Assembly (NCBI RefSeq): GCF_945881795.1 | Contig: NZ_CAMCVG010000007.1 | Span: 1-50,369 of the forward strand | DNA length: 50,369 bases | Direction: 5' to 3' | Source: Rhodoferax sp. OV413 | GTDB lineage: Bacteria > Pseudomonadota > Gammaproteobacteria > Burkholderiales > Burkholderiaceae_C | Shown: positions 9,095 through 50,369 of the stretch, piece by piece | How the letters are laid out: every line of letters starts with the position of its first letter | Numbering within the stretch: the first letter of the stretch is position 1 | Made by a program: the position numbers and the translations under genes | The notes under the pieces: generated by a model | Database searches by the model: none | Seen by the model: the letters and a program-made list of their open reading frames with translations, nothing else | What the model was told of the DNA's origin: nothing

Positions 9095-10492
9095 TTAAGA
9101 ATTCAGGTGCTTGGCTTGCAGGCGGGGCGTGCCGTGTTGCAGAACGCCGCCCACGGTGTAGAACGAGCCGAACACAAGAATTCTATCAGCGGGGTCTGCG
9201 GCGGCGATGGCGGCATCCAGCGCCTGCTGGGGGTTCGCGAAGGTGGCAGAGGTGGCGTCTTTGCGGGTGTTTTGGGCCAACCACTGGGCCTGCAGGGTGG
9301 TGCCGCTGGCCGCGCGCGGGCTGGGCAAATCGGTGAAATACCAGCGGTCGATCACCGGGCTGACCTTTGCCAGCATGGGAGCGAGGTCTTTGTCTGCCAT
9401 GGCGCCGAACACCGCGTGGGTGGTCGGAAAAAAGCCCATCGCGTCCAGGTTGGCTGCCAGGGCGGCAACCGAGTGGGGGTTGTGGGCCACATCCAGCACC
9501 AGGGTGGGCTGGCCGGGAATAATCTGAAAGCGCCCGGGCAGCTCCACAAAGGCCAGCCCGTTGCGCACCGCTTGTGCAGTGACCGGCAGCTTCTCGCGCA
9601 TGGCGGTCAGCGCGGCCAGAACGCCGGCGGCATTCATCAGCTGGTTGGCGCCGCGCAAGGCGGGGTAGGCCAAACCGCTGTAGCGACGCAGGTCGTCGTT
9701 CCCGGCAGCCGCGCGCCCGGCCCAGCCCCATTGCTGCTTGTCGCCCGAGAAATGAAAGTCCACCCCGATGCGGCCCAGATCCGCGCCCAGCGCGGCGGCA
9801 TGGTCCAACACACTTTGCGGCGGCATAGGGTCGCTCACCACCACGGGGCGCCCTGCGCGCATGATGCCGGCCTTCTCGCGGCCTATGGTTTCGCGGTCGG
9901 GCCCGAGCAGCTCGGTGTGATCGAGGTCGATGCTGGTGATGATGGCGCAGTCGGTGTCAATAATGTTCACCGCGTCCAGCCGCCCGCCCAAGCCCACCTC
10001 CAGAACGACCGCATCCAGCGGCTCCTGCGCCAGCGCCCACAAAATCGCCAGGGTGGTGAACTCAAAGTAGGTGAGCGCAATTTCGGAGCCTTTTGGGGCT
10101 CTAGCGCCCTCCACCATTGCGCAAGCTGCTGCAATTTTTGTAGCAGATGCCGCCTCTCCGTTCAGGCGCATACGCTCTTCGAAGTGCACAAGGTGGGGCG
10201 ATGTGTAAACGCCGGTCTTGAACCCGGCCTGGCCCAGAATGGACTCCAGCATGGCGCAGGTCGAACCCTTGCCGTTGGTGCCGGCCACGGTGAACACCGG
10301 GCAGTCAAAGCGCAAACCCATGCGCTGCGCCACAGTGCGCACCCTCTCCAGCCCCATGTCGATGCCGTTGGGCCCCATTGGATGCAATCGCTCACAGTGG
10401 GCCAGCCAGTCAGCCAGGGGTGATTGCGCGGTCAGGGCCGCGTCGCGCGCGTGCGGCAGGTTTTCAGGCAAGGTTTCGGGCAGGTTTTGCAT
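9095..10492 (-). CDS. folC: Dihydrofolate synthase/folylpolyglutamate synthase with repeat-encoded insertion
   Basis: Mur-ligase-family ATP enzyme that adds glutamate to dihydropteroate and to folates. It has the P-loop VAGTNGKGSTCAML, the SPHLVHFEERMRLNG segment, the DHTELLG motif and a C-terminal ligase domain (LDVAHNPHSVAAL). I place the start at ATG 10492 (465 residues; ATG 10504 is also possible) because the open frame to 10774 runs antisense through the neighbouring ArsC-like gene. Between LNGEAAS and LTYFEF, residues reading TKIAAACAMVEGARAPKGSEI are encoded by a copy of a dispersed repeat (10091-10144), which lengthens a loop. The frame remains open, so the enzyme is probably functional. 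Confidence 0.92.
   Translation of the reverse strand: MQNLPETLPENLPHARDAALTAQSPLADWLAHCERLHPMGPNGIDMGLERVRTVAQRMGLRFDCPVFTVAGTNGKGSTCAMLESILGQAGFKTGVYTSPHLVHFEERMRLNGEAASATKIAAACAMVEGARAPKGSEIALTYFEFTTLAILWALAQEPLDAVVLEVGLGGRLDAVNIIDTDCAIITSIDLDHTELLGPDRETIGREKAGIMRAGRPVVVSDPMPPQSVLDHAAALGADLGRIGVDFHFSGDKQQWGWAGRAAAGNDDLRRYSGLAYPALRGANQLMNAAGVLAALTAMREKLPVTAQAVRNGLAFVELPGRFQIIPGQPTLVLDVAHNPHSVAALAANLDAMGFFPTTHAVFGAMADKDLAPMLAKVSPVIDRWYFTDLPSPRAASGTTLQAQWLAQNTRKDATSATFANPQQALDAAIAAADPADRILVFGSFYTVGGVLQHGTPRLQAKHLNS
10091..10144 (-). repeat. Dispersed palindrome-like repeat, copy A (inside folC)
   Basis: On the minus strand the core (10097-10131) reads CAGCAGCTTGCGCA, ten variable bases, then GCGCTAGAGCC. 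The same 14+10+11 layout occurs at 11363-11397 and 49259-49293. This copy lies in frame inside folC and encodes AAACAMVEGARA. Confidence 0.7.
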
Positions 10493-10540
10493 ACAGGCAG
10501 CCATTGTCGCGCAGGCCGCCGGCACTGCGACAATAAGGCC

Positions 10541-11006: not shown

Positions 11007-11333
11007 ATGACCACGACCCACTTCGACGGCGTTTCCATCACCACCAAAGCCAATGTGTACTTCGACGGCAAGTGCGTGAGCCACGGCTTCACCCTGGCCG
11101 ACGGCACCAAGAAGTCGGTCGGCGTGATCCTGCCCGCCACCCTGACATTCAACACCGGCGCGCCTGAAATCATGGAATGCGTAGGCGGCAGCTGCGACTA
11201 CAAGCTCGACGGCTCCGACGTGTGGGTGCAGTCCTCGGAAGGCGGAAAATTCAACGTGCCCGGCAACGCGAAGTTCCAGATCCGCGTGACCGAGGGCTTC
11301 GAGGCCTACCACTACATCTGCCACTTCGGCTAA
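11007..11333 (+). CDS. ppnP: Pyrimidine/purine nucleoside phosphorylase
   Basis: Small cupin-fold enzyme (former DUF1255/YaiE) that phosphorolyses a range of nucleosides to base plus ribose 1-phosphate. The 108-residue product shows the conserved SVGVILPATLTFNTGAPEIM, the FNVPGNAKFQIRV strand pair and the C-terminal YICHFG. The length is close to E. coli PpnP (94 residues) with a short N-terminal extension. It lies upstream of argG with a dispersed repeat copy between them. Confidence 0.88.
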   Translation: MTTTHFDGVSITTKANVYFDGKCVSHGFTLADGTKKSVGVILPATLTFNTGAPEIMECVGGSCDYKLDGSDVWVQSSEGGKFNVPGNAKFQIRVTEGFEAYHYICHFG

Positions 11334-12746
<1,413 letters not shown>

Positions 12747-21418: not shown

Positions 21419-21466
21419 GGGCTTGTCTTCCTTTAAATTTTTTTCTAGCGTATCGACTGGTTAGAA

Positions 21467-21496
21467 CCAAGTCTGTCCACTTGTGGACAGACTTGG
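21467..21496. promoter_or_regulatory. Perfect 30-bp palindrome, likely operator
   Basis: Left arm CCAAGTCTGTCCAC (21467-21480), centre TT, right arm GTGGACAGACTTGG (21483-21496). All 14 pairs match. It lies in the 163-bp region between the divergent transporter and ligase genes, 48 nt from one ATG and 85 nt from the other, so one dimeric regulator could control both operons. There is no T-run on either side, so it is not a normal terminator. No TetR- or MarR-type gene is adjacent; the binder is unknown. Confidence 0.75.
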
Positions 21497-21581
21497 GACG
21501 AACAGCACAAAACAATAGAAAGGTAATTTTTCAAAAACAGTCATCGACGCATACAGCGGGCGATGCATAGGAGACAAAGTT

Positions 21582-23249
21582 ATGGCTGAAACCACCTACG
21601 CGGTGCCTTATGAAATGCTGCGCCAATGGGCGCAGAAAACCCCGAACAAGGTTTATCTCCGTCAACCCGTGAACCGCGTGTATCGCGAGAAAACATGGGC
21701 GCAAGTCCACGATGAAGTTCTGCGCCTTGCCTCTGCGTTCCGTGCGCTGGGCCTGAAGAAAGGCGACGTTGTTGCCATTCTCGGCAAGAACACGTCCGAA
21801 TGGTTTATCGCGGATTTCGCCTGCGCGGCCGCTGGCCTCATTCCCGCTCCCATCTACTTCACTGCCGGGGCCGACACGATTCGTTATGTGCTCGAGCACA
21901 GTGAGGCCAAAGCCATCATATTGGGCAAGCTGGATGATTTGAAACCGGCAAGCGAGGGCATTCCCGAGGGCATCATCACCATTGCTCAGCCCTACAAAAC
22001 TTTGCCCTGCGACCACCAGATGACGGATCTGATCGCTAAGCATGGGCCGCTGAAAGACGTCAATGTCCCGACAATGGAGGATACCTTCTCGCTGCTTTAC
22101 ACATCTGGCACGACGGGTGAGCCTAAGGGTATTGTGGTCACGTTTCGCAATATTGGATACAGTTCAACGACGGCGGTCGAGGCCCTCAAATACACCGAAC
22201 ATGATCGACTGATCTCTTACCTTCCACTCGCGCACATCACCGAGAGAGCTATGGTGCAACACGTGGGTCTCTACCATGGCTGTTCGGTCGCATTCGTCGA
22301 GAGTCTGGAGACCTTTGCCGAGGACGTGCGCAACGCCGCACCTACCATCTTCATTTCAGTGCCTCGTCTGTGGATGAAGTTCCAAAGCGGTATTCTCGCA
22401 AAAATGCCGCAGGCAAAGCTGGATCGGCTGCTGCGGATCCCGATCTTGCGCAGTGTCGTCAAAAACAAGATTAAAACGCTGCTGGGTTTTAAGAATGTGC
22501 GTATCGCTGGCTCGGGCGCAGCGCCGATCTCGCCGGCCGTATTGGCATGGTTCGCGCGACTTGGTATCAACATCACAGAAGGTTTCGGCATGAGCGAAAC
22601 CTCTGGCCTTGTCACGGTCAATTATCCATTCCAGCTTTCCAAGATCGGCACGGTCGGTGGGCCAGCAAAAGGCGCAAAGATCAAGATTTCTGAGGAAGGG
22701 GAGCTTTTGGTCAGCGGCGACTGCATCGTTAAGGGTTATTACAAAGCGGCAGAAACTACAGCTGCAACTTTCCGTGACGGATGGCTCCATACAGGCGACA
22801 TGGGAGAGATCGATACCGACGGTTGCCTCAAAATTACAGGACGAGTCAAAGAGCTTTTCAAGACTGCCAAAGGTAAGTATGTTGCCCCAGTGCCGATTGA
22901 AAGTCTGATTGCAGAGAACCCATACGTTGAACAAATTTGCGTCATGGGAAGCGGTCTGCCTCAGCCTGTAGCTGTCGTAGTAATGGGCCCAGGAGCCGGA
23001 AAGGTTGCGCAGATGTCCGAAGAATTAACTGGATTGGGAGAAACCCTCAAAAAGGTCAACGCCCGTCTCGAGTCTCATGAAAAACTCAGTCACTTCTTCG
23101 TGGCTAGGGACCCTTGGACTATCGAAAACGGTTTGCTGACGCCAACCATGAAAACCAAGCGCAACTTGATAGAGAAGAAATACAAAGATGTGGTTGCCCG
23201 CCCTAATTCCAATGGCAATGCGGTGGTTTTTGAACAAGGCAGTTCATGA
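21582..23249 (+). CDS. Long-chain-type acyl-CoA ligase (AMP-forming)
   Basis: Adenylate-forming enzyme of 555 residues that activates a carboxylic acid to its CoA thioester. Motifs are LLYTSGTTGEPKGIVVT (P-loop), YLPLAHITER, EGFGMSETSG, DGWLHTGDMGEID and the C-terminal hinge ITGRVKELFKTAKGKYVAP. The overall pattern (LAHITER and a GKYVAP tail) matches the FadD15/ACSL-type long-chain ligases. The GGAGAC ribosome-binding site precedes ATG 21582. First gene of the rightward operon. Its TGA overlaps the next ATG (ATGA at 23246-23249). Confidence 0.92.
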   Translation: MAETTYAVPYEMLRQWAQKTPNKVYLRQPVNRVYREKTWAQVHDEVLRLASAFRALGLKKGDVVAILGKNTSEWFIADFACAAAGLIPAPIYFTAGADTIRYVLEHSEAKAIILGKLDDLKPASEGIPEGIITIAQPYKTLPCDHQMTDLIAKHGPLKDVNVPTMEDTFSLLYTSGTTGEPKGIVVTFRNIGYSSTTAVEALKYTEHDRLISYLPLAHITERAMVQHVGLYHGCSVAFVESLETFAEDVRNAAPTIFISVPRLWMKFQSGILAKMPQAKLDRLLRIPILRSVVKNKIKTLLGFKNVRIAGSGAAPISPAVLAWFARLGINITEGFGMSETSGLVTVNYPFQLSKIGTVGGPAKGAKIKISEEGELLVSGDCIVKGYYKAAETTAATFRDGWLHTGDMGEIDTDGCLKITGRVKELFKTAKGKYVAPVPIESLIAENPYVEQICVMGSGLPQPVAVVVMGPGAGKVAQMSEELTGLGETLKKVNARLESHEKLSHFFVARDPWTIENGLLTPTMKTKRNLIEKKYKDVVARPNSNGNAVVFEQGSS

Positions 23250-49078: not shown

Positions 49079-50369
49079 TCAAGCGCGGGCAGCAGCGTAA
49101 CGCGCCTCCTCCTGCAAACGCAACACCCTGCGCTGCACTTTGCCGGTGGTGGTCATGGGCAGGGCGTCCACGAATTCAATCTCTTTGGGGTACTCGTAGG
49201 GCGCAAGCTGCCCCTTGACGTGGGCTTGCAGGTCCAGGGTGAGTTGGGCATGAAATACGGCTGTAGCGCTTTCACTGCCTGCGCAAGCAGCTACAAAATC
49301 AGGAGCAATCACCACATAAGCCTTGACCAGCGCGCCGCGCTCGGCGTCGGGCTTGGGCACCACGGCGGCGTTGACGACGGCGGGGTGTTTCACCAGGCAG
49401 TTCTCTATCTCGCCGGGCCCGATGCGGTAGCCGGCAGACTTGAACACATCGTCGCTGCGGCCCTGGTACCACAGGTAGCCCTCGGCGTCGCGCACCGCCA
49501 GATCGCCGGTACGGCACCAGTCGCCGGTGAATTTGGCGGCGGTGGCGGCGGGGTTCTTCCAGTAGCCTAAAAAGAAGATGGGGTCGGGGTCGCCATGCAC
49601 ATCAAAGCGGTGCAGCGCCACGTCGCCGGGCACGCCTGCCGGGCATTCCCGGCCCGCCTCGTCAATCACCGCGACCCGATGGCCGGGGTAGCCCATGCCC
49701 ATGCTGCCGGGCTTGGCGGGCCAGTGGCGGCTGGAGTTGCCGACGATGTAGTTCATCTCGGTCTGGCCAAACATCTCATTGGGCGTGACGCCAAGCTGCT
49801 GCACGCAGTAGCCAAAAACCGCATCGCCCACCGCCTCGCCCGCGCTCATGATGGCGTCGAGCTTCAACCCGAACTGGCGGCGCACGGTGCGGCCTGTGGC
49901 CCCCGGATACGCCTTCATCATGGCCTTGAGCGCGGTGGGAAACAAAAACGTGTGCGTGACGCCGCAATCGCGCATCAGCTCCAGCGCGACTTGCGGGCTA
50001 AAGCGCCCCCTGAAGGCGACGATGGGCCGCCCGAAGTAGAGCGTGGGCAAGAGAGCGTCCATCAGCCCGCCCGTCCAGGCCCAGTCTGCGGGCGACCAGA
50101 ACACCGCCCGGGAGCTGCGATTGGTGACGCCGTCAAACCCGAACCAGTTCTGGCTGGCCACAAAGCCGCTGAGGTTGCCAATCAGCGCGCGGTGCGGAAT
50201 CAGCGCCCCTTTGGGGTTGCCGGTGGTGCCGCTGGTGTAAATCAGCACAGCGGGGTCGTCGGCCAGCGTGTCTACCAGCGCGAACTCGGCCGGTTGGGCT
50301 GCCAGGGCGGCCTCCCAGCGGGCGTCGTGCGGGCCGCAGAGCAGTGAGGCTGCATCGTTATCCCCCAAC
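49079..50369 (-). CDS. Acyl-CoA synthetase (medium-chain/acetate type), 5' end outside window, with repeat-encoded insertion
   Basis: The C-terminal 429 residues of an AMP-forming acyl-CoA synthetase. Motifs are VLIYTSGTTGNPKGALIPH, FWSPADWAWTGGL, MFGQTEMNYIVGNSSRHWPAKPG (written in parts: QTEMN then PAKPG), WCRTGDLAVRDAEGYLWYQG and RSDDVFKSAGYRIGPGEIE, with the catalytic Lys in TTTGKVQRR. It belongs to the MACS/AcsM-like group. Between YVVIAP and LDLQAHVKG, the residues FVAACAGSESATAVFHAQLT are encoded by a dispersed repeat copy (49259-49293). The start codon lies beyond the right edge. Confidence 0.9.
   Translation of the reverse strand, partial: LGDNDAASLLCGPHDARWEAALAAQPAEFALVDTLADDPAVLIYTSGTTGNPKGALIPHRALIGNLSGFVASQNWFGFDGVTNRSSRAVFWSPADWAWTGGLMDALLPTLYFGRPIVAFRGRFSPQVALELMRDCGVTHTFLFPTALKAMMKAYPGATGRTVRRQFGLKLDAIMSAGEAVGDAVFGYCVQQLGVTPNEMFGQTEMNYIVGNSSRHWPAKPGSMGMGYPGHRVAVIDEAGRECPAGVPGDVALHRFDVHGDPDPIFFLGYWKNPAATAAKFTGDWCRTGDLAVRDAEGYLWYQGRSDDVFKSAGYRIGPGEIENCLVKHPAVVNAAVVPKPDAERGALVKAYVVIAPDFVAACAGSESATAVFHAQLTLDLQAHVKGQLAPYEYPKEIEFVDALPMTTTGKVQRRVLRLQEEARYAAARA
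49250..49310 (-). repeat. Dispersed palindrome-like repeat, copy C (inside acyl-CoA synthetase gene)
   Basis: On the minus strand the core (49259-49293) reads TAGCTGCTTGCGCA, ten variable bases, GCGCTACAGCC. It differs from copy B by one base in the first block and from copy A by three bases in total. It is in frame and encodes VAACAGSESATA, the same frame as copy A in folC. Confidence 0.7.

Follow-up and report, generated by a model that had tools for sequence, protein, structure and literature searches.

The repeat reported here, an element of about 66 bp present in three copies in a 50,369-nucleotide stretch of Rhodoferax sp. OV413 (contig NZ_CAMCVG010000007.1, positions 1 to 50,369; the whole analyzed stretch is called the window below), finds its closest described counterparts in DNA uptake sequences, namely the uptake signal sequences (USS) of the Pasteurellaceae and the DNA uptake sequences (DUS) of the Neisseriaceae. 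The accessible sections of PMC3630211, PMC2346458 and PMC7811141 present dialects, a distinctive coding share and scarcity in acquired DNA as traits of such sequences. In five Pasteurellaceae, 47-70% of uptake sequences were coding against 84-89% of the sequence (accessible part of PMC2346458), and a gap test of the kind used below led Redfield and colleagues to conclude that uptake signal sequences are not insertions (accessible part of PMC1626085). Among other repeats, the protein-inserting Rickettsia palindromic elements (RPE) are about 150 bp long according to the available text of PMC10969869, and BRE, a betaproteobacterial repeat of Bordetella and Polaromonas, measures about 90 bp, has 69% GC in Bordetella, is tandem at some loci, lies wholly in coding sequences in some copies and occurs four times in R. 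ferrireducens, as described in the available portion of PMC3110155. Searches of open-licence papers aimed at the element, or at repeats and uptake sequences in its family, gave no paper whose title, opening of the abstract or matched letters describe it; the repeats in the accessible part of PMC2755013 are CRISPR repeats only.

Compared with USS and DUS, to the extent that the available text of the uptake literature describes them, the element is likewise spread genome-wide over intragenic and intergenic positions with a coding share below expectation, has genus or species dialects and AT tracts beside a GC-rich core, seems to have arisen in place at several sites and appears scarce in acquired segments. 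It differs from them in its frequent net indels and in a host outside those two families. As with RPE, its copies are scattered over many unrelated genes, favor a reading frame and encode a recurring peptide, and the RPE likeness proposed in the initial annotation of the window stands insofar as the repeat is abundant, has many genic copies and a strong frame preference, and belongs to a lineage unrelated to Rickettsia. Protein insertion as its general mode is not supported, none of ten genes having gained 22 residues, nor are palindromic stems supported by covariation. Furthermore, the element is about 66 bp long rather than the roughly 150 bp given in the available RPE text, adds no net residues to RmlD or, within the family, to FolC, and has maintained sites and a maintained consensus. 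From BRE it is set apart by description, not by the BRE letters, being 66 bp long, 50% GC, dispersed and present in hundreds of copies, where the accessible account of BRE differs. Finally, its intergenic copies, lying downstream of genes and between convergent genes, recall repetitive extragenic palindromic (REP) sequences, bacterial interspersed mosaic elements (BIME) and repeats resembling miniature inverted-repeat transposable elements (MITE), from which it differs in that most copies in our sample of the host genome are genic and no association with PF01797 was seen.

The explanation that we favor overall, at a probability of roughly 0.45, is an in-place DNA recognition motif kept by uptake-like biased transmission. 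That the repeat is a DNA-level motif of about 66 bp, established in place over existing sequence and maintained, is probable; that biased transmission, as for DNA uptake sequences, is the force behind the motif is a more tentative proposal, with the balance of our judgment leaning the other way.

A dispersed repeat of about 66 bp in Rhodoferax

A core of 14 nucleotides, 10 variable nucleotides and 6 further nucleotides occurs three times in the window (10102-10131 on the minus strand, 11363-11392 on the plus strand and 49264-49293 on the minus strand), compared with 0.01 occurrences expected in shuffled sequences, so the three-copy repeat of the initial annotation is real, as part of a longer unit. 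Searching the whole 2.35-Mb genome with this core, with one position left open and up to three mismatches allowed, returned 164 matches and none for the backwards control; other copies in the genome are therefore not few. Stacking of 116 copies delimited a conserved unit of about 66 bp, running from about 15 bases before the core to about 20 past its end, with sharp ends beyond which the composition equals background. Its consensus is ATTGCTATCAATTTAATAGCTGCTTGCGCAATATCGACGGGCGCTAGCGGCCGATTTGACTCTAAAA. A profile of this unit found 174 copies at E <0.1, and none in reversed sequence, in 1.19 Mb of the genome, a sample of about half the genome that includes 60 kb of N and consists partly of contigs picked for pattern matches, so that the density is somewhat high. 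The element has 50% GC, contains AT tracts and is dispersed in both orientations. Stretches examined in three further congeneric species carry 140-180 copies per Mb, and with the host included the range for the four is still about 140-180.

Each of the three copies in the window fits the unit over most or all of its length. The copy in folC spans 10081-10147 on the minus strand (nhmmer E 1.4e-9; model positions 2-66 at 10082-10146, ends extended to model length), that in the spacer between ppnP and argG spans 11347-11413 on the plus strand (E 3.5e-12; model positions 2-59 at 11348-11405, ends extended, the extended end lying one base ahead of the argG start codon), and that in an acyl-CoA synthetase gene spans 49243-49309 on the minus strand (E 3.9e-10; model positions 2-66 at 49244-49308).

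The motif appears to overlie existing coding sequence

The copy in folC had been read as an insertion in a surface loop, and the finding that would speak against this had been set beforehand, namely relatives carrying the corresponding residues without the nucleotide repeat. Such relatives exist. In an alignment of 45 FolC sequences, comprising the window protein and 44 of its 80 relatives (Rhodoferax and other Comamonadaceae), the segment under the element is 38-46 residues long; its length in the window protein, 42 residues, is shared by 29 of the 44 relatives, including Acidovorax Leaf78 and Paracidovorax konjaci, in which folC has no element match. At the DNA level, folC of two genomes with a similar sequence (G007 and G029) and of two genomes with no obvious element (G014 and G004) aligns with a gap of at most 3 bases, and the site is equal in length in G265 and G299, which have no element match there. 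The element model also matches the same position, more weakly, in Polaromonas, Ottowia, Simplicispira and several Rhodoferax. Relative to structure 1w78, which we take to be E. coli FolC, the window protein has four extra residues at this segment. This near-equal length with or without the element, in DNA and protein alignments and against 1w78, led us to reject an insertion in FolC; the copy overlies a native conserved motif, not an extra loop.

A comparison with homologues was made for ten genes, those set against PDB structures having been picked as recognized, well-studied enzymes, and a gain of the full 22 residues encoded by the element was absent in all of them. Net gains ranged from 0 to 12 residues: 0 in RmlD, which aligns without gaps, 1 in PrmC (over the aligned part), 4 in FolC and in TruB, 6 in Pgi, 7 in GlmU, 10 in cca (relative to the short form), 12 in DapE and in RlmD, and 10 to 12 in the acyl-CoA synthetase. 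For an aquaporin outside this set, no solved homologue was found within the limit. In the acyl-CoA synthetase, the PDB alignments show a net gain of 10 to 12 residues over short-form homologues, not one of 22. Several orthologues that share its long form have no element match at the site.

The clearest view of a native motif taking on the element comes from cca, where 29 of 30 sequences could be read. The motif TIN(S/A)IA is present in 11 of them, with codons that agree with the element in 15-17 of 17 bases; in the other 18 the motif is TIN-A-(I/M)-A or a near variant, with codons that match at 11-13 of 17, and no sequence scores 14. The peptide TINAIA occurs in both groups, written with element-like codons in three sequences and with GC-rich codons in four. 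Nine of the 11 sites are solid element matches (19.7-39.8 bits under the g1 model, that of the host dialect), a tenth (L293) is a weak one at 10.1 and the last (L296) has no match at that threshold. The segment around the motif is 26-48 residues long, so indels occur there as well. The codons of native conserved motifs thus conform to the element, most clearly in cca.

Sites without the element were also compared in length among genomes. Of 86 pairs without an element match, the 37 whose flanks aligned within 25 bases could be judged, and in these, the argG spacer and site 30133 of G033 excepted, the length difference was at most about 12 bases; the clearest equal-length empty sites were FolC and site 53030 of G168 (versus G007 and G001). 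The sole presence/absence site in the four-genome site comparison, G033 30133, gave no full-length clean insertion, and its candidacy as one was dropped on inspection, which shows about 13 residues replaced by 31.

These comparisons bear on the strongest competing explanation, a mobile element tolerated by proteins, as RPE are, or akin to MITE, that would move as a 66-bp unit, land in frame or be kept only there, and have its copies homogenized by conversion. The discrete unit with sharp ends suits it, as do the net gains of 10-12 residues in the acyl-CoA synthetase, cca, DapE and RlmD. The lack of any full-length clean insertion among the sites compared, G033 30133 being a replacement, and the equal-length coding sites without the element argue against it. 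A mobilizing RAYT/Y1 transposase (REP-associated tyrosine transposase) is likewise not indicated: PF01797 is present in 19 of 20 genomes, in a single copy in 17, and genomes rich and poor in the g1-dialect core do not differ in this respect. On balance, and with the evidence on frames, site conservation and distribution given below, we regard a mobile element as unlikely, although it stands ahead of the other alternatives. In one genome (G073) we observed twenty Y1 transposase matches, several of them identical split copies.

Reading frames and intergenic positions

Gene calls for the frame and location counts came from a simple gene finder made for this analysis. Of the 174 copies in the host sample, 100 are genic, 62 are intergenic and 12 overlap a gene in part; the coding share is 57%, compared with 91% of the sequence being coding. 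Three other species have 53 of 129 copies in genes. The genic copies show no strand preference (46 sense, 54 antisense), yet 78 of the 100 use only two of the six frames, sense frame 0 (31 copies) and antisense frame 1 (47 copies). Both genic copies of the window are in the same frame, as had been stated for them, and this is sense frame 0. Stop codons alone explain this bias only in part: of 128 intergenic copies, 60 leave antisense frame 2 open, yet 3 of 153 genic copies use it. That a frame so often open is so rarely used indicates that the encoded peptide matters, and related peptides, such as xxIAACAxSTGA and PLAPAEYAQAA, recur in unrelated proteins. The large genic share and the recurring peptides are also what a protein-tolerated mobile element would produce.

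Intergenic copies in the host genome avoid divergent spacers (7 of 57 copies, compared with 115 of 380 spacers), favor convergent ones (15 of 57 copies, compared with 46 of 380 spacers) and often begin just past a stop codon. The positions past stop codons and between convergent genes would fit an element acting in RNA, as a terminator or a hairpin stabilizing mRNA. Against this, 293 copies showed no long-range covariation, leaving palindromic stems unsupported; the strongest covarying pairs are all at most 3 positions apart, chiefly in AAAA/TTTT tracts. Rfam gave no match to the element copies of the window at gathering thresholds, and the surroundings of the first two had none even with E allowed up to 1; most copies in the host sample are genic, on both strands. 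With no strand preference in genes and covariation only between near neighbors, we consider RNA structure highly improbable and rejected it as the principal explanation.

Sites and consensus are maintained

Among the host genome, G007, G001 and G033, the element was present in the other species at 201 of 208 site pairs with both flanks aligned, reciprocal pairs being counted apart. In 82 orthologous pairs, the consensus base at high-information positions was kept in 1617 of 1676 cases (96.5%) and a non-consensus base at the same positions in 284 of 363 (78%), both denominators including 118 "one only" cells split evenly by hand; low-information positions were kept in 1109 of 1385 (80%). Neutral decay would treat consensus and non-consensus bases alike. 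Intergenic copies of a close trio of genomes agree, with identities of 93.5% at high-information positions (673), 79.5% at low-information positions (453) and 84-85% in the flanks. Conserved sites, a kept consensus and a consensus particular to each genus are not expected of a dead or decaying selfish insertion, and the first two weigh against the mobile-element explanation.

Maintenance of this kind could also reflect binding by a chromosomal protein, active in nucleoid architecture, segregation or global regulation, with each site selected separately and the sites coevolving with the protein into genus dialects. The relaxed consensus is of a type that the accessible text of PMC1626085 gives as typical of regulatory binding sites arisen by point mutation, and the left part of the unit is a GCTA-N9-TAGC palindrome whose CTA and AGC do not vary in any intergenic pair from the close trio. 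The avoidance of divergent spacers and the scarcity of close pairs are further points in its favor. No gap between copies was shorter than 868 bp in four 200-kb stretches, and 6.3% of the gaps in the host genome were below 1 kb, compared with 16.8 +/- 3.3% under random placement; the overall variation of these gaps is within the random range. On the other side, hundreds of sites of 66 bp, many of them in core genes, would need to be kept by selection. The different counts in congeners would be a further objection, weakened because the survey pattern undercounts other dialects, which made us rate this explanation slightly higher. A binding site of this kind seems to us an improbable explanation, somewhat more so than a mobile element. 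Pairs of elements within about 1 kb were rarer than under random placement in the host genome and also in G007, G001 and G033.

Distribution and genus dialects

In a survey of 250 genomes of the family with the g1-dialect pattern, which undercounts other dialects and hence also affects the high and low labels used for transposase and competence genes, 52 genomes had at least 30 matches (counted by hand), with a maximum of 809. In 194 genomes from other families of the order, none exceeded 14 matches of the g1-dialect core, where the backwards control reached 58; genomes with many matches to this core thus all came from the host's family. Congeners can differ widely in core counts, for instance 392 and 5, which would favor a mobile element were other dialects not undercounted. 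G089, for example, has 6 pattern matches in its whole genome, yet its own profile finds 24 copies in 80 kb.

Iterated profiles gave a distinct consensus in g54, g29, g133 and g101 beside g1, with 0-2 matches at E <1 in reversed controls, and the consensus of G172, a member of the host genus, stays near g1. Inverted repeats are visible in the consensus of some other genera. At six sites in G089 (g54) orthologous to g1 sites, the G089 copy preferred its own dialect in all six cases (28.8-55.1 versus 4.2-22.0 bits, leave-one-out), and the g1 copy fitted the g1 model better at five of them and tied at one. The cca copy of G089, outside the training set, scored 45.2 under the g54 model and 19.8 under the g1 model. 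Sites are retained from one genus to another even as the consensus changes, most clearly in g54.

Acquired DNA was examined in a syntenic block of three relatives. Islands of at least 1 kb present in one genome only held 4 copies in 70.7 kb, and the remainder of the block held 88 copies in 465.6 kb. The island count compares with 13.4 expected (Poisson p ~0.003, by hand), the counts outside islands being non-independent since the three genomes share orthologous copies. This depletion is again contrary to what a mobile element would be expected to leave. A search with the typed consensus, which finds close copies only, returned no phage record and three plasmid records.

Discussion

The process that we propose would run as follows. 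A putative reader would recognize the motif as DNA, not as RNA or peptide; surface or recombination machinery would prefer DNA carrying it, and imported alleles with better matches would replace worse ones. Proteins would tolerate what they can, which would give rise to the frame preference, and small indels in loops might also be recruited into the motif.

Several results weigh against this explanation. The consensus is loose: among the 164 core matches, 6 are exact, 30 have one mismatch, 48 have two and 80 have three, whereas uptake sequences have a very strong consensus. For this reason we do not file the element as an uptake sequence and say only that it works most like one. Its 66 bp also compare poorly with the 9-12 bp core of uptake sequences. 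Indels are common, 8 of the 10 genes compared having net gains of 4-12 residues, and some of the equal-length "empty" sites look weakly element-like. The dialect evidence is less clear outside g54, the own dialect beating the g1 model at only 3 of 5 sites in g133, 2 of 4 in g29 and 1 of 1 in g101; of the g29 cases, one had a margin of 0.1 bit and the other concerned a copy's reverse strand. All 23 genomes of 23 have ComEC and DprA, irrespective of the element count, so these competence genes do not predict the element. Finally, a 23-kb stretch of Rhodoferax antarcticus plasmid NZ_CP019241 holds 7 copies at E <1e-4, denser than the chromosome stretches studied, which runs counter to a depletion in acquired DNA and would suit a mobile element. 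These copies lie mostly among toxin-antitoxin, IS1634 and hypothetical genes, six of them outside or nearly outside annotated genes, in a plasmid gene table that is incomplete.

Even so, an in-frame repeat in a gene need not be an insertion, and a gap test changes how it is read. A DNA-level signal kept in many core genes would mean that protein function is not alone in dictating the protein sequences of this family. If the motif is an uptake signal, sequence-specific DNA uptake would extend to a large environmental family, and its evolution could be tested with natural dialects. More speculatively, and with less likelihood than biased transmission as such, the element may be a third class of DNA self-recognition (uptake) signal, evolved independently in the Comamonadaceae, with 66 bp and genus dialects; it would then have rewritten codons of many core genes and measurably shaped the proteome of an entire family. 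Should the element instead be mobile or a binding site of a chromosomal protein, it would still be a very dense, gene-invading repeat family.

Host genes and other features of the window

The gene identities given in the initial annotation agree with Pfam. The folC gene, for dihydrofolate/folylpolyglutamate synthase, corresponds to 9095-10540 on the minus strand (a translated stretch with its start codon left open; Mur_ligase_M/C; 1w78 at E 7.6e-101). On the plus strand, ppnP, for pyrimidine/purine nucleoside phosphorylase, lies at 11007-11333 (PF06865) and argG, for argininosuccinate synthase, at 11415-12746 (PF00764/PF20979). The spacer site between them is also occupied in G007, G001, G033, G168 and G172, and the element there is reversed in orientation in G265 and, by orthology to G265, in G299. 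The acyl-CoA synthetase gene, on the minus strand at 49079-50369, is cut by the contig end (PF00501/PF13193; 5u2a at E 1e-61).

Two further observations were made. A contig titled Akkermansia muciniphila (L193) carries a gene for a FolC that shares 70% identity with the comamonad query and is probably a mislabelled metagenome bin. In the window, a near-palindrome at 21442-21521, with 39-nt arms that are 72% complementary and separated by 2 nt, lies upstream of an open reading frame that starts at 21582.
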